From Candidatus Thermoflexus sinensis (GTDB lineage Bacteria; Chloroflexota; Anaerolineae; Thermoflexales; Thermoflexaceae): a stretch of DNA of 51,020 nt. A model generated the notes under the pieces. The model made no database searches, had not been told where the DNA came from, and was given only the letters and a program-made list of their open reading frames with translations. This document shows, one piece after another, positions 5,920 to 29,828 of the stretch (its first letter is position 1; each line of letters opens with the position of its first letter). The stretch spans positions 1-51,020 of the forward strand of contig JAEVEY010000159.1 in the NCBI GenBank assembly GCA_016842045.1, given 5' to 3'. A program made the translations under genes and the position numbers.

Positions 5920-6348
5920 TTACCCGGCGGACCCCTCACGACGGATTCGACGACGGCGGGCCACCTCCAGACGGACCCGGGAGCGGCGCAGGGCGGCCAG
6001 GGCAGCGTTCAGGTCAACGCCGGCCGGCCGCTCCTTCAGGATCTGCTCCGCCCGTTGACGGGCCTCCTCAGCCCGCGCGATATCGATCTCCTCCGCCCGT
6101 TCCGCCACATCCGCCAGGACGATCACTTTCTCCGGGGTCACCTCCATGAACCCCCCATGGATCGCAAACCAGAGCTCCTCGCTGCCCCTTCGGGCCAGCA
6201 ACGGCCCAATACCCAGGGCCGTCAGCAGCGGCGCATGCCCGGGCAGGATCCCCAGCTCTCCCTCCACACCAGGAGCCACCACCATATCGACGTCCCCGCT
6301 GAACAGGGCGCGCTCCTGAGTGACGATCTCCAGACGCAATGGGCTCAT
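5920..6348 (-). CDS. atpC: ATP synthase F1 epsilon subunit
   Basis: 142 aa, typical length. The N-terminal beta-sandwich is evident from LEIVTQERALFSGDV and GELGILPGHAPLLTAL, the hallmark epsilon motif. The C-terminal part (residues ~90-135) is an Ala/Arg/Glu-rich two-helix region ending in a very basic tail. Epsilon links gamma to the c-ring and can inhibit ATP hydrolysis through the C-terminal helices. The ATG overlaps the stop of the upstream nucleotidyltransferase gene (ATGA), so its translation appears coupled to an accessory gene rather than directly to atpD. It is the last gene of the F1 operon; copy C of the MITE-like repeat lies 34 bases downstream. Confidence 0.95.
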   Translation of the reverse strand: MSPLRLEIVTQERALFSGDVDMVVAPGVEGELGILPGHAPLLTALGIGPLLARRGSEELWFAIHGGFMEVTPEKVIVLADVAERAEEIDIARAEEARQRAEQILKERPAGVDLNAALAALRRSRVRLEVARRRRIRREGSAG

Positions 6349-6890
6349 CCCAGGGTTTCCTCCTTCAGGTGGGTCCAGCGCAACCGCAGCTCCGGAAGCC
6401 CCGCCTCCTCCGCCAGGCCCCGGATCGCCGTCTCCAGGTATTCGAAGTCCAGATGATCCCGCTGGGCTTCCAGCATCCCACGCACATCGTTCTGATCGAT
6501 CGGCTCCCAGCGCGCCAGCTTGTAAGCGATTAACTCCTCCGGCGCCACAAAGCGCAACGGGATTCCGAACAGAACAAACTCCCGCGCGCGGCGGATGGCC
6601 TGAACATCCAGTTGCAAGGAAGCGGATCGCAGATCCACCGAAAAGCGCCAGGTGAAGGCAAGCTTGACCGGGCGTCCCTCCTGGAGCCTTTGCAGCGCCA
6701 TCGGGCTTACCGCAAACCCTTCCTCATGAAACGCCCGCAGGAGGGCTGGCATCTGCTCCGGCGGGACGAGCAGGATCACATCCACGTCCACGGTTGTCCG
6801 GGCGATCCCCCAGAGCGCGGCCGCCAGCCCTTCCAGGATCGCATAGGGCACCCCGAGGCTTTCAAGGACGCGGTGAAGCCGCCGCAGCAT
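6345..6890 (-). CDS. Nucleotidyltransferase (AbiEii/DUF6036-like) inside the atp operon
   Basis: 181 aa from ATG 6890, which sits one base after the preceding stop; the longer track ORF reads through the neighbour in another frame. The segment LEGLAAALWGIARTTVDVDV carries the degenerate G...T-x-D-x-D signature of pol-beta-superfamily nucleotidyltransferases of the AbiEii/DUF6036 type. These often act as the enzyme of a toxin-antitoxin or phage-defence pair. The later APEELIAYKLAR helix and a DQNDV motif fit the same family. The stop overlaps the atpC ATG by four bases. Whether it is an active toxin, an antitoxin or a domesticated enzyme is unknown. Confidence 0.7.
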   Translation of the reverse strand: MLRRLHRVLESLGVPYAILEGLAAALWGIARTTVDVDVILLVPPEQMPALLRAFHEEGFAVSPMALQRLQEGRPVKLAFTWRFSVDLRSASLQLDVQAIRRAREFVLFGIPLRFVAPEELIAYKLARWEPIDQNDVRGMLEAQRDHLDFEYLETAIRGLAEEAGLPELRLRWTHLKEETLG

Positions 6891-6891
6891 C

Positions 6892-8498
<1,607 letters not shown>

Positions 8499-8608: not shown

Positions 8609-9559
8609 TTAACGGCCTGCCCCGATGCGCGGGCGAGCCTGGATCCGGGCTCGAGCAGCCTGGCGCATGGCCTCCGCCCCGCCCGCGATATCCAGCATCT
8701 CGCTGGTGATCGACTGCTGGCGGGCCTTGTTGTAGCTCAGGGTCAGCGTATAGATCAGGCCCTCCGCGTTCTCCGTCGCATTGCGCATGGCCACCATGCG
8801 GGCGGAGTGCTCGCTGGCCAGGCTCTCCAGAACCGCCTGATAAACCTGGAGCTCCACGAACCGCGGCAGGATCACCTCCAGCAATTGCGCCGGGTCCGGT
8901 TCGTAAATAAACGTTTTGTTCGCCACCGCCCGGGTGTCCAGCCGCTCGACCGCCTCAGGGACCGCCGGCTCATGGCCCTGGGTGAGGCGAAGCGGCAACA
9001 GCCGACGGACCCGCGGGCGCTGCACCATTGTGTTGATAAAGTCCGTGTAAGCAATGTAGACCTCGTCCACGCTCTCCCTCAGGAACTCCTCCATCGCCAG
9101 CCGGGCGATCGGACGCACGTCGGTAAAGCGAGGCCAGCGGGGCATCGGCGAGAAATCCGCCACCAGGGCCCCCCGCACCCGCGCCACCGCATCCCGCCCC
9201 TTGCGCCCCACGGTGAGAAAGGACACGGGTGCCCGGCTGACTGCCGCGAACCGGAAGGCCAGGCGGATGACGTTATCGTTGTAAGCGCCGCACAGGCCCC
9301 GGTCGGCGGTGATGAGGATCAACAGAACCCGCCGCACCGGCCGAACCTCCAGCAAGGGATGGAGCAGCGCGCTGGCCTCCGCCTGATGGGCAAGATGAAC
9401 CAGAACCTCCCACGCTTTCTGGGAATATGGGCGGGACGCCAGGGTCATCTCCTGGGCCCGTCGCATTTTGGAGGCCGAGACAGCTTCCATAGCCCGCGTG
9501 ATCTGGGAGATACTTCGGACCGTTCGAATCCGACGCCGCAACTCCCGCAGGGTGGGCAC
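8609..9559 (-). CDS. atpG: ATP synthase F1 gamma subunit
   Basis: 316 aa from a GTG at 9559, preceded by AGGAGGG. The track's longer start adds a non-conserved tail. The conserved N-terminal helix TRAMEAVSASKMRRAQ and the C-terminal helix with NATENAEGLI are the two strands of the rotor coiled coil. ITADRGLCGAYN marks the central domain. Gamma transmits c-ring rotation to the catalytic hexamer. Upstream lie three Uma2 genes that separate it from atpA, with only four bases between the last Uma2 stop and this start. That suggests one transcript and possible translational coupling. Confidence 0.95.
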   Translation of the reverse strand: MPTLRELRRRIRTVRSISQITRAMEAVSASKMRRAQEMTLASRPYSQKAWEVLVHLAHQAEASALLHPLLEVRPVRRVLLILITADRGLCGAYNDNVIRLAFRFAAVSRAPVSFLTVGRKGRDAVARVRGALVADFSPMPRWPRFTDVRPIARLAMEEFLRESVDEVYIAYTDFINTMVQRPRVRRLLPLRLTQGHEPAVPEAVERLDTRAVANKTFIYEPDPAQLLEVILPRFVELQVYQAVLESLASEHSARMVAMRNATENAEGLIYTLTLSYNKARQQSITSEMLDIAGGAEAMRQAARARIQARPRIGAGR

Positions 9560-9563
9560 GACG

Positions 9564-10202
9564 CTACCCTCCTGATGCCATATGTTGGATCGCCTCCCAG
9601 CATTCCAGGACGGAGGGCAAGGGCTCCTGCCACAGCCATTCTGCCCGGATCCGGAACCCGGGCACAGTCTCAGATACCACCCAGCCCTCGCGCGCCATCT
9701 CTTCATGATACAGATCTCCGGAGCCCCTTCGATCAATGATCACCACCCTTTCTTCCGGATCCACCCACCAGATCTCGGGGACTCCGATTTCCCAATATGC
9801 GTTCCGCTTCTCCCCAAGATCGTAATCACGTGTCGATTCCGAAAGGATCTCGATCACCAGCAGAGGAACCGCTTCGACTCGCTTCGCCGTGACTCGGGCT
9901 TCCCGGCTAACCGCCATCACATCCGGAGCGAACTGCCATGAGCCTGTCCGGAACAGGGCGTTCCCCCCCACCACTTTTCCTATACCATAAGCCTCCGTAT
10001 AGAACCGCAGCAGGGTTAACAGGAAGGCCTGACGGTCCTCATGGGCGAAACTGGCTGGGGAGTGCACAACCATCACTCCATGGAGATATTCCGCCTTCAG
10101 ATCTTCATCCGCGATGGCCTCAAATTCCGCTTCGCTGACCCCGTAAAGGCGAAGCAGATAAGGATGCTCAATTCGCACTTCCAGCGGGCGCGCGGCCTGC
10201 AT
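9564..10202 (-). CDS. Uma2 family (DUF820) putative endonuclease, copy 1
   Basis: 212 aa from ATG 10202, which shares a base with the upstream stop (TAATG). The Uma2/DUF820 fold is a PD-(D/E)XK-type domain. Here FAPDVMAVSR, LLVIEILSESTRDYD and the K of GEKRNAYWEIGVPEIW give the Asp...Glu...Lys pattern. Uma2 proteins are abundant in Cyanobacteria and Chloroflexota, but their biological role is not established. It is the most divergent of the three copies. It sits four bases before atpG, so its translation may influence expression of gamma. A function in DNA cleavage is family-level inference. Confidence 0.85.
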   Translation of the reverse strand: MQAARPLEVRIEHPYLLRLYGVSEAEFEAIADEDLKAEYLHGVMVVHSPASFAHEDRQAFLLTLLRFYTEAYGIGKVVGGNALFRTGSWQFAPDVMAVSREARVTAKRVEAVPLLVIEILSESTRDYDLGEKRNAYWEIGVPEIWWVDPEERVVIIDRRGSGDLYHEEMAREGWVVSETVPGFRIRAEWLWQEPLPSVLECWEAIQHMASGG

Positions 10203-10825
10203 TACCCTTCCTCCCGCATTTCCTCCCAGCATTCCAGGACGGAAGGCAAAGGCTCCTGCCACAGCCACTCCGCCCGGATCCGGAACCCGGGCACGGCCTC
10301 GGAAATCACCCATCCTTCGTGGATGATCTCCGGGCGATAATCATGACTTCGTCGCTCCACCAGCACAACCTGTTGATCCAGATCCACCAGCCAGATCTCC
10401 GGGATGGCCATCTCCCGGTAAGCCATCCGCTTCTCGTTCAAATCGTAATATCGGGTGGACTCCGAAAGGATCTCAATCGCCAGATCCGGGGCCCCATCGA
10501 CCTCTTTTATCCCCGCCCGCTGGACATCCCTCACCACCATAACATCGGGGGCAAAGCGCCGGGAACCGACATGGAACAGTGCGTTTCCCCCCAGAACCCG
10601 CCCGGGCGGATGGCTATCCAGATAGAATTTCAACAAAGCGGCCAGAAAGATCTGCCGCTCCTCATGGCGGACGCTCGCCGGCGAGTGCACGATCATCACC
10701 CCATCGATGTATTCCGCCTTGAGGTCCTCATCGGCCAGCGCCTCAAACTCCGCCTCGTCCACCCCATACAGGCGAAGCAAATAAGGATGCTCGCTTCGCA
10801 CTTCCAGCGGGCGCGCGGCCTGCAT
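10202..10825 (-). CDS. Uma2 family (DUF820) putative endonuclease, copy 2
   Basis: 207 aa from ATG 10825, overlapping the previous stop as TAATG. It carries the same core motifs as its neighbours (RFAPDVMVV, LAIEILSESTRYYD, EKRMAYREMAIPEIW). Its N-terminus and the C-terminal tail (LPSVLECWEEMREEG) are nearly identical to copy 1 and copy 3. A 108-base block spanning this gene's stop and the start of copy 1 is repeated exactly 623 bases away, which points to recent duplication or gene conversion. The middle of the protein is clearly diverged. Confidence 0.85.
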   Translation of the reverse strand: MQAARPLEVRSEHPYLLRLYGVDEAEFEALADEDLKAEYIDGVMIVHSPASVRHEERQIFLAALLKFYLDSHPPGRVLGGNALFHVGSRRFAPDVMVVRDVQRAGIKEVDGAPDLAIEILSESTRYYDLNEKRMAYREMAIPEIWLVDLDQQVVLVERRSHDYRPEIIHEGWVISEAVPGFRIRAEWLWQEPLPSVLECWEEMREEG

Positions 10826-11460
10826 TACCCTTCCTCCCGCATTTCCTCCCAGCATTCCAGGACGGAAGGCAAAGGCTCCTGCCACAGCCACTCCGCCCGG
10901 ATTTGAAAACCGGGGACTGTCCTTGAAACCACCCAGCCTTTGCGAACCGTTTCCCCCAGATACCCGCTTTCCCTCCCCTCCACGATCACTACCTGTTCCT
11001 CCGGATCGACGAACCAGATCTCCGGCACTCCGATCTCCCGATAGGCTACCCGCTTCTCCCCGAGATCATATCCTCGCGTGGACTCCGAAAGAACCTCGAT
11101 CACCAGATCCGGAGGGCCTTCGATCTCCTTCGGGCCCACCCGCGTCTCCTCCTGCACCACCATCACATCCGGCGCAAACCGCCGGGGTCCGACCCGGAAC
11201 AGAGCATTCCCGGCCAGGACGAGGCCCGCTCCACGCTGGCTTAAATGGAGATTCAACAGCGTCAACAGGAAAGCCACATACCGCTCATGACGCACGGAGG
11301 CCGGCGAGTGCACGATCATCACCCCATCGATGTATTCCGCCTTGAGGTCCTCATCAGCCAGCGCCTCAAACTCCGCCTCGTCCACCCCATACAGGCGAAG
11401 CAAATAGGGATAAAAGGGCTCAACTTCCACCCGAACCCGGGCGCCCGCAACGGCAGCCAT
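10825..11460 (-). CDS. Uma2 family (DUF820) putative endonuclease, copy 3
   Basis: 211 aa, the first Uma2 gene after atpA, starting 13 bases from the atpA stop. Motifs include RRFAPDVMVVQEE, LVIEVLSESTRGYD and GEKRVAYREIGVPEIW, consistent with an intact PD-(D/E)XK core. The N-terminus differs from copies 1 and 2 (MAAVAGARVRVEVE), while the region YIDGVMIVHSPASVRHE is identical to copy 2 and the tail LPSVLECWEEMREEG is shared. The three-gene array is therefore a mosaic. The genes follow the codon and GC style of the surrounding operon, so they are not obviously recent foreign DNA. Confidence 0.85.
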   Translation of the reverse strand: MAAVAGARVRVEVEPFYPYLLRLYGVDEAEFEALADEDLKAEYIDGVMIVHSPASVRHERYVAFLLTLLNLHLSQRGAGLVLAGNALFRVGPRRFAPDVMVVQEETRVGPKEIEGPPDLVIEVLSESTRGYDLGEKRVAYREIGVPEIWFVDPEEQVVIVEGRESGYLGETVRKGWVVSRTVPGFQIRAEWLWQEPLPSVLECWEEMREEG

Positions 11461-11473
11461 TCTGAACCCCCGA

Positions 11474-13165
11474 TCACCCGGCCAGCCAGCCGCGGTTGAA
11501 CTCCTCGATGGCCCGCCGCAGCTTCTCCTCCGTCTCCTTCGTGATCTCCTTTCGCTCAGCGATATCGCGGCCGACCTCCGGATAATTTGTAGCCATAAAA
11601 CGCAAGAACTCCTTCTCCCACTGACGCACCTTCTCCACCGGGATCGGATCCAGATACCCGTTTGTCCCGGCGAAGATCACCATGACCTGCTCCTCGAGAG
11701 GCATCGGCTCATATTGCGGCTGCTTCAGGACCTCGGTCAGCCGCTTGCCCCGCTCGATGATCGCCAGCGTGGTCTTATCGAGATCCGACCCGAACTGCAC
11801 GAAGGCTGCCAGCTCCCGGAACTGGGCCATCTCCAGGCGCAGCCGCCCGGCCACCTGCTTCATGGCCTTTGTCTGAGCCGCGCCACCCACCCGGGAGACC
11901 GAGATCCCCACGTTGATCGCCGGACGGATGCCCGCATTGAAGAGATCTGTCTCCAGGTAAATCTGACCATCCGTAATGGAGATCACATTGGTCGGGATGT
12001 AAGCCGAAACATCCCCCAGCTGCGTCTCCACGATGGGCAGCGCCGTGAGGCTTCCACCCGACCCCTTCACTTTCAGGATCTTCAGATTCTCCTTATCCGG
12101 ACGCGCCTCCAGGGCTTTCAGGGCCTCTTTGTAACCCAGGGGGCCGGTGTAAACCTTCCCGTCGATCCCCTCCTTCGTGTCCTCCGGCGCGTCCCTGGGG
12201 ACAATGATGTATTTATTCGCCAGACGGGCGGCGCGCTCCAGTAGACGAGAATGGAGATAGAAGATATCGCCCGGGTAGGCCTCCCGGCCTGGCGGGCGCC
12301 GTAGCAACAGGGAGACCTGGCGGTAAGCCCACGCGTGCTTGGTGAGGTCGTCGTAGACGATGAGGGCATCATTGACCAGCTGGCCGTCGACGATCACCCC
12401 GTTCTCCATCACCTCCTCACCCATCGCGCAGCCTGCGTAGGGCGCGATGTATTGCAGCGCCGCAGGATCGGAGGCGGTGGCCGCCACCACGATGGTGTAA
12501 TCCATCGCGCCGTAGCGCTCCAGGGTGGCCACCAGACGGGCGACCTGAGCCCGCTTCTGGCCGATGGCTACATAGATGCAAACCATCCCTTTCCCTTTTT
12601 GATTAATGATCGTGTCCACCGCGATGGCCGTCTTCCCGGTCTGACGGTCACCGATGATCAGCTCCCGCTGGCCACGGCCGATGGGGATCATCGCGTCGAT
12701 GGCCTTGATGCCGGTCTGGACCGGGGTGTCCACGTCCTGGCGCTTGGTCACCCCGGGGGCGATCCGCTCGATGGGGCGGTAGCGATCCGTCACAATGGGC
12801 CCCTTGCCGTCCAGCGGGCGCCCCAGGGGATCGACCACACGGCCCAGCAGCGCCTGGCCCACCGGCACAGAGGCGATCCGGCCAGTTCCACGGACCTTCA
12901 TCCCCTGTCGGATCCCGCTGAAATCCCCCAGGATGATCACGCCAACGTTGTCCCGCTCCAGGTTGAAGGCGATCCCCATCACCCCGTTCTCGAATTCCAC
13001 CAGCTCGCTGGCCATCACGTTGCTGAGGCCCGAGCACCGGGCGATGCCATCTCCGGCCTCGATGACCTCGCCGATTTCGGCCACTTCTACCTCAGGGGTA
13101 TAGGCTTCGATCCGCTGCTGCAGGGAAGCGATCAACTCCTGCCAGGCATCCGTCCGATCCGCCAT
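11474..13165 (-). CDS. atpA: ATP synthase F1 alpha subunit with an internal insertion
   Basis: 563 aa, about 50 residues longer than most alpha subunits. The non-catalytic Walker A ([11 protein letters not shown]) and the alpha signature [15 protein letters not shown] are intact. The extra length lies between [12 protein letters not shown] and [10 protein letters not shown], where a charged segment (including [19 protein letters not shown]) is inserted in a loop that is short in most species. The N-terminus that normally contacts delta is present. The gene starts the F1 operon, preceded by a near-consensus promoter, and is followed by three Uma2 genes before atpG. No atpH lies upstream; delta appears only as a domain fused to b elsewhere. 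Confidence 0.96.
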
Positions 13166-13228: not shown

Positions 13229-13256
13229 ATTATAGCGGAGATTGTTATGGCTTCAA
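13229..13256 (-). promoter_or_regulatory. Sigma-70 type promoter for the F1 operon
   Basis: On the minus strand TTGAAG (13251-13256) and a perfect TATAAT (13229-13234) are separated by 16 bases, about 65 bases before the atpA ATG. The -35 box lies inside the end of the M42 peptidase gene. This shows that the F1 genes start a new transcription unit. Confidence 0.75.
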
Positions 13257-28535: not shown

Positions 28536-29828
28536 CTAATGGTGGCCTTCCGAGTGTCCCTCCCCCCCATGCCCGGCTGTCGCCAGGGCGATAAACACCA
28601 TCGTGAGCATCATAAAAATGAAGGCCTGGATGAGCCCGACGAAGATCTCCAGACCGTAAAAGACCGCCGGGATTAAAAGAGGGAGCAGGAACATCATGAT
28701 CCCCAGCAACACATGGCCGGCGAAGATGTTGCCGAACAATCGGAATGAGAAAGAGAGCACCTTCGCCACCTCGCTGATCAGCTCCAGCAAACTGACCAGG
28801 AACTCAATGACCCCCATGAAACCGCGGCGGAGGGCCCTGACGTTAAAGAACTTCCAGAAGTAGCCCGGCCCCAGAGCGCGAACGCCCCACACCTGGACCA
28901 TGAACACGGCCACCAGCGCCAGCCCGATGGTGAAGTTCAGATCCGTGCTGAGCGCTCGAAGATAGGGAACCAGAACGAAACCCTCGGTCTTCGCCTCGCT
29001 GGGCTCCCCATGGCCCTCCGCCTCATGACCGGCTGCCTCCGCCGGGGCCGCTGCCGGCTCCGCCGTGAGCAGGGTGAACGGCCCCCAATGGATCACCGCA
29101 TAGCCCTCTCCATGGCCGTGAGCCGGCTCTACCTTCCCAATGGAATCGAACCCCGGGAGCAGGCCCATCCAGTTAGCGGTCAGCACCATCAGGAAGATCG
29201 AAGCCACGAGGGGAAATACCTGCCGGGCCCGGTGGCCCAGCACCACCTTCGCCAGGTTCTCATAGAGCGCCTCGACCAGGAACTCGAAGAGATTGACCAG
29301 GATCCCCAGCCCTCGAACGGGGGGTGGAAGAGGCCCCGCCCGCCGGGCCGCCACAAGGCCCAGCCCCAGCACCACCAGATCTACCAGGACCATTGCGACC
29401 ATTGTATTCGTGAGCGGAGCGCCGAAGAACAGCGGCCCGGTCAAGGGCTCTGGCTTCACCAGGATCACCGGGAGAACAGCCTTCAATGGTTTCCCATTGA
29501 TGGGGAGCCCCTGCCCCAGCGTACCGAAGAAAAGAGAGGTCCCCAGCACGAACCCCAGGATCAGGGGCATCACCACCAGCGTCTGGAAGTAGCGGATCAC
29601 CCGGGTGTCTCGCAGGCCCCACAGGACCAGCGCGATCACCAGGGCATCAATGAGAAGGATCCCGATCAAGCCCGTCGCGGAGGCCAGGAACGTCGCCCCG
29701 GCCCCTCGCAGGAGATCCCCCAGGCTGCCCAGTAACCAGAAGGCCGCCTGCCCTCCCACCCCACATGAGAGCAGGGCGATAAGTCCGAGCAGCAAATAGG
29801 GGCCCATCCGTCGGATCAGTTTGCCCAT
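28536..29828 (-). CDS. atpB: ATP synthase a subunit with N-terminal extension and His-rich loop
   Basis: 430 aa from ATG 29828; most a subunits are 220-290 aa. The essential arginine helix is intact (LSFSFRLFGNIFAGHVLL), as are the C-terminal helices. The first ~120 residues form about three extra hydrophobic segments (ATGLIGILLIDALVIALVLW and LVVMPLILGFVLGTSLFF) ahead of the usual start. A loop at ~245-300 is rich in His, Glu and Ala (AAGHEAEGHGEPSEAKTEG), and the C-terminus is again His-rich (GHGGEGHSEGHH). Start choice: MGKLIRRMGPYLL has a GGAGG about a dozen bases upstream. The 169 bases between this gene and atpE contain an imperfect hairpin but no gene. Confidence 0.92.
   Translation of the reverse strand: MGKLIRRMGPYLLLGLIALLSCGVGGQAAFWLLGSLGDLLRGAGATFLASATGLIGILLIDALVIALVLWGLRDTRVIRYFQTLVVMPLILGFVLGTSLFFGTLGQGLPINGKPLKAVLPVILVKPEPLTGPLFFGAPLTNTMVAMVLVDLVVLGLGLVAARRAGPLPPPVRGLGILVNLFEFLVEALYENLAKVVLGHRARQVFPLVASIFLMVLTANWMGLLPGFDSIGKVEPAHGHGEGYAVIHWGPFTLLTAEPAAAPAEAAGHEAEGHGEPSEAKTEGFVLVPYLRALSTDLNFTIGLALVAVFMVQVWGVRALGPGYFWKFFNVRALRRGFMGVIEFLVSLLELISEVAKVLSFSFRLFGNIFAGHVLLGIMMFLLPLLIPAVFYGLEIFVGLIQAFIFMMLTMVFIALATAGHGGEGHSEGHH

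Follow-up and report, generated by a model that had tools for sequence, protein, structure and literature searches.

The Uma2 proteins are a greatly expanded family in cyanobacteria and Thermus, and their role is unproven. The family (Uma2/DUF820/COG4636, PF05685) has a PD-(D/E)XK nuclease fold, and migration of the active-site lysine has been reported for COG4636 (PMC1189080). Uma2 proteins have been proposed to act as solo toxins, mostly encoded in paralogue cassettes (Makarova et al. 2009, PMC2701414), and PADLOC holds a related single-gene defence candidate, PDC-S03. A precedent for a small conflict-type gene inside a housekeeping operon comes from Thermus thermophilus HB8, where an MNT-HEPN module has inserted into the lysine operon (PMC2701414). 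Here, we explored a window of 51,020 nt from the heat-loving Candidatus Thermoflexus sinensis (Chloroflexota; contig JAEVEY010000159.1, the whole stretch of DNA analysed), in which a set of Uma2 genes lies within the ATP synthase operon. As in the described cassettes, adjacent Uma2 paralogues stand in tandem on one strand with no partner antitoxin; the Thermoflexus set differs in lying inside a core operon, in its apparent translational coupling, and in segment-wise gene conversion. With the wider family it shares sequence, fold, the conserved D/E residues, and the migrated K; what sets it apart is its genus-wide retention in an ATP synthase operon. All three proteins match the PDC-S03 models (E 3.8e-26 to 7e-23), yet PDC-S03 would be expected among other defence genes, whereas the flanks of the cassette are atp genes. 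The HB8 insertion, for its part, is a strain-level event in another family, while the Thermoflexus cassette is genus-wide and old. Our literature search found no paper joining Uma2 and ATP synthase. The cassette is thus real, conserved, and without an earlier report that we could find: a novel arrangement of a known family, not a new system.

Results

The three Uma2 genes that an earlier note had placed between atpA and atpG were verified on the minus strand, together with their flanking gaps (13 nt from atpA to Uma2-A, 4 nt from Uma2-G to atpG) and the two TAATG overlaps that chain them (table 1). Their assignment to Uma2/DUF820 also held, all three exceeding by far the PF05685 cut-off of 27 bits; a search of NCBIfam with the same proteins gave no match. 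An assembly artefact is ruled out, given that the arrangement recurs in several Thermoflexus species, one of them represented by a single-contig genome (G005, with two copies at the junction). Two other features of the atp region deserve mention. A DUF6036 nucleotidyltransferase-like gene (below the Pfam cut-off) lies between atpD and atpC (window 6345-7007), with a 4-nt overlap with atpC; it has long matches in genomes G002 and G004, shorter ones in G001, G005, and G008, and none in G003 and G007. In addition, the atp genes do not form a single cluster, as atpB is found on the same strand at 28590-29402, some 15 kb upstream of atpA.

Table 1. Features of the Uma2 cassette and its neighbours (window coordinates)
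Feature	Position	Strand	Evidence and remarks
atpA, ATP synthase alpha subunit	11474..13165	-	PF00006/PF00306/PF02874; neighbour upstream of cassette
Uma2-A, 211 aa, A-type copy adjoining atpA	10825..11460	-	PF05685 121.3 bits; fold matches to Uma2/DUF820 structures
Uma2-A/Uma2-M TAATG stop/start overlap, GGAGG just 5'	10823..10827	-	Sequence
Uma2-M, 207 aa, middle copy	10202..10825	-	PF05685 116.9 bits
Uma2-M/Uma2-G TAATG stop/start overlap, GGAGG just 5'	10200..10204	-	Sequence
Uma2-G, 212 aa, G-type copy adjoining atpG	9564..10202	-	PF05685 111.5 bits
atpG Shine-Dalgarno, AGGAGG-type, in last codons of Uma2-G	9567..9573	-	Sequence; shared by eight Thermoflexus genomes
atpG, ATP synthase gamma subunit, GTG start	8609..9559	-	PF00231 307.7 bits; neighbour downstream of cassette
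Promoter-like site 5' of atpA (weak evidence)	13229..13256	-	TTGAAG-16-TATAAT, 10/12 match

The AlphaFold model of Uma2-A (mean pLDDT 71.8, pTM 0.74), in which the C-terminal half reaches about 90 and the N-terminus is poor, matches the Uma2/DUF820 structures 6okh, 9y1l, 3ot2, and 1wdj (Foldseek, E 4e-13 to 5e-8); the predicted protein has the restriction-endonuclease-like fold of 1wdj and 3ot2. Four residues, D98, E122, D132, and K136, are invariant among 14 copies from six genomes. K136 corresponds to the migrated Lys, located on the following helix, and a K aligns with it in 9y1l and 6okh. D98, E122, and K136 are the probable PD-(D/E)XK catalytic residues, and the three proteins appear to be intact Uma2 enzymes of this class with a predicted nuclease activity.

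In every Thermoflexus genome that can be read across the atpA-atpG junction, Uma2 genes occupy it, three of them in G000 and G002 and a pair in G001, G004, G005, and G008. In G003 a contig break falls inside the array; each of the two ends carries a partial copy, and as these differ, the array has at least two genes. The G007 contig stops 25 nt short of atpG, and its cassette tail is the same as that of G003. No atpG was found by our search of G006. The synteny survey that the earlier note had called for placed Uma2 at this junction in Thermoflexus only: tblastn and a profile derived from 40 Uma2 proteins of Thermoflexus gave no hit there in 96 other Anaerolineae, a sample of the class in which nearly every genome represents a different genus. 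In these the gap between atpA and atpG has a median of about 41 nt. A scan of contigs with the Uma2 alignment returned matches in Thermoflexus loci only, and so no outside donor was found. The copies at the atp locus form one clade among Thermoflexus Uma2 proteins (support 0.815), which splits into a G-type and an A/M-type group, both crossing species boundaries. Given this single clade, the simplest history would be one insertion on the Thermoflexus stem, followed by local duplication and vertical descent. According to the earlier note, finding the same genes solely in unrelated contexts would speak for chance insertion; instead, the closest relatives found occur only in Thermoflexus atp loci, and the insertion is genus-wide.

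The description of these genes as mosaic proved apt, since blocks in which neighbouring copies are nearly identical are interspersed with others in which they differ as much as orthologues do. Over codons 121-200 the copies of G001, G004, G005, and G008 differ by 0.01-0.04 within a genome, against 0.18-0.29 between species, third positions included. Codons 17-56, in the N-terminal part, are also homogenised in G004 and G005, as well as between the A and M copies of G000 and G002; codons 57-120, on the other hand, are not, and here copies group by position rather than by genome. The longest identical runs of adjacent paralogues were reached by none of 2000 permutations, while those of orthologues from distant species mostly fell within the permutation range. 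Neighbouring copies thus undergo gene conversion, chiefly in their C-terminal halves, with a middle segment that stays copy-specific. In this segment G000-A is closest to G001-A and G008-A (0.28-0.30), and G000-M is marginally nearer to G004-A (0.34) than to G000-A (0.37), affinities that would be explained by an ancestral three-gene array from which different members were lost. Elsewhere in G005, two three-copy Uma2 arrays (L156, 2948-4659; L159, 2973-4696) have near-identical N-termini, which suggests that gene conversion may be general for the Uma2 arrays of Thermoflexus.

Between distant species, orthologues of the atp-locus Uma2 genes show dN/dS of 0.165-0.195 (pairwise NG86, with dS near 1 and gene conversion present in the data), compared with 0.03-0.08 for atpG. 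The Uma2 orthologues are thus constrained yet fast-evolving, under purifying selection and changing faster than atpG. All eight Thermoflexus genomes have the GGAGG 5' of the atpG GTG; six have it in the closing codons of the last Uma2 gene, and in G004 and G005 it lies just past the stop of that gene. Junctions inside the arrays of these genomes consist of TAATG, TGATG, or 23-nt overlaps, or of a 3-nt spacing. Terminator-like sites show no excess over chance in the cassette region, and promoter-like sites were little above it (2 found, 0.9 expected by shuffling). Overlapping junctions, no excess of terminators, and a promoter-like site before atpA make co-transcription of the Uma2 and atp genes likely.

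As the earlier note supposed, Uma2 genes are abundant in such genomes, with 27 genes in 19 loci of G005 and 10 matches in G000, often in tandem. Single-copy loci are common in Thermoflexus, and many of the G005 loci are species-specific and some fragmented. The placement had also been called unusual, which stands as far as the atp junction of other Anaerolineae is concerned; it is not one of a kind, however, for other core operons carry Uma2 too. Such genes are found inside nusA-Uma2-ylxR-infB, nusG-Uma2-rplK, def-Uma2-trxB, and other operons, and beside mnmA and a mevalonate-decarboxylase gene. The nusA/ylxR-infB insertion, of one or two genes, is as universal in Thermoflexus as that of the atp operon: it occurs in all eight genomes with a readable ylxR (L038, 4033-5289 of G000:C86; L205-L212) and the nusA-ylxR junction of 22 non-Thermoflexus relatives lacks it. 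The nusG-Uma2-rplK arrangement, in a ribosomal-protein operon, was seen in two Thermoflexus genomes (L164, 2999-3520 of G005; L199 of G006). Uma2 genes recur near translation genes (nusA-infB, nusG-rplK, def, rsgA, mnmA), a pattern picked post hoc. An enrichment between co-directional genes is not claimed, about 10 of the 19 G005 loci, these operons among them, being roughly the random expectation. At one G005 locus (L147, 4430-6034), TnpB-like and serine-recombinase-like genes, IS607-type as judged by eye, lie near Uma2 and a nucleotidyltransferase gene. The atpA-atpG junction itself receives other inserts: family f39 of Anaerolineae has two tandem Pro/Thr-rich lipoprotein-like genes there (L122, L105, L118, L128, L100), and G027 (L060) and G055 (L067) a single Pro/Thr-rich lipoprotein-like gene. 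A permissive junction and the presence of Uma2 in several core operons together argue against a role specific to ATP synthase.

Discussion

Our findings support a model where one Uma2 gene entered the atpA-atpG junction in the Thermoflexus ancestor and duplicated in tandem, the array then growing and shrinking by recombination between copies while being inherited vertically. This course of insertion, duplication, expansion and contraction, and vertical inheritance is documented by the comparison of genomes. The Uma2 genes would very probably be read off the atp transcript by coupled translation, as judged from their junctions, with atpG taking its ribosome-binding site from the cassette end. 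Since the genes appear to encode intact enzymes under purifying selection, selection has probably retained a function of the proteins themselves, most likely a nuclease-based defence against foreign nucleic acid, for which the core operon would offer steady expression and a position that can be deleted only at a cost. Co-expression and nuclease activity are presumed here, as is the defence role, against which count the candidate status of PDC-S03 and the fact that the atp locus is no defence island. Overall, we give about even chances to a co-expressed Uma2 nuclease cassette with a defence-like role that uses a core operon for its expression.

The main rival is passive retention, in which a passenger of no use at this site, from a proliferating, possibly selfish family, inserted by chance and was kept because the ribosome-binding site of atpG now depends on the cassette end and recombination restores the array. 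The scatter of species-specific and partly fragmented Uma2 loci over G005 would fit such a history, as would the copy number varying between two and three at the junction, the unrelated inserts of other lineages, and the overlap of the atpG ribosome-binding site with the cassette end. Yet such a passenger should not show an unchanged set of predicted catalytic residues and dN/dS of about 0.17-0.2, nor at least two copies in every readable genome when one ribosome-binding site would be enough; we consider this explanation rather unlikely, although mere linkage to that site could account for part of the retention. Uma2 has been proposed as a probable solo toxin encoded in cassettes of paralogues (PMC2701414), which raises the further prospect of an addiction module, with a stabilising toxin-like element whose paralogues restrain each other. 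Distinct middle segments joined to shared C-terminal halves could be expected of such copies, but a type II system would have a cognate antitoxin next to it, and only Uma2 paralogues and atp genes adjoin, while single-copy loci are common in the genus; we find this improbable.

A link to ATP synthase, in which gamma-subunit expression is tuned, or the atp mRNA processed between atpA and atpG, by the insert or the proteins it encodes, draws on the genus-wide position, the tight coupling, and the long inserts exactly at this junction in other Anaerolineae. Those inserts are, however, unrelated lipoprotein-like genes, 86 of the 96 other genomes lack any insert of at least 700 nt, and Uma2 occupies many other loci, making such a link very improbable. 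A subunit or assembly factor would be expected beside atp genes in more than one lineage; with no case among the 96 and many unrelated loci, Uma2 as an ATP-synthase-specific gene is rejected, the proteins are presumably neither subunits nor assembly factors, and we found no evidence tying them functionally to the enzyme. The least probable reading that we entertained, a very long shot, is that the two or three proteins form a hetero-oligomeric nuclease whose supply is tied to ATP synthase expression, coupling energy status to nucleic-acid defence, as the nusA-infB Uma2 would do for translation; it draws on homogenised, shared C-terminal halves and copy-specific middles that might give different recognition.

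A fixed genus-wide address, several natural copy-number states, and segments delimited by recombination make this copy set a useful entry point to the role of the Uma2 family. At the atp address expression is predictable, orthologues and paralogues can be distinguished, and the part that remains different from copy to copy is a candidate for determining specificity. Core operons such as atp and nusA-infB can carry fast-evolving, conflict-type genes for long times.
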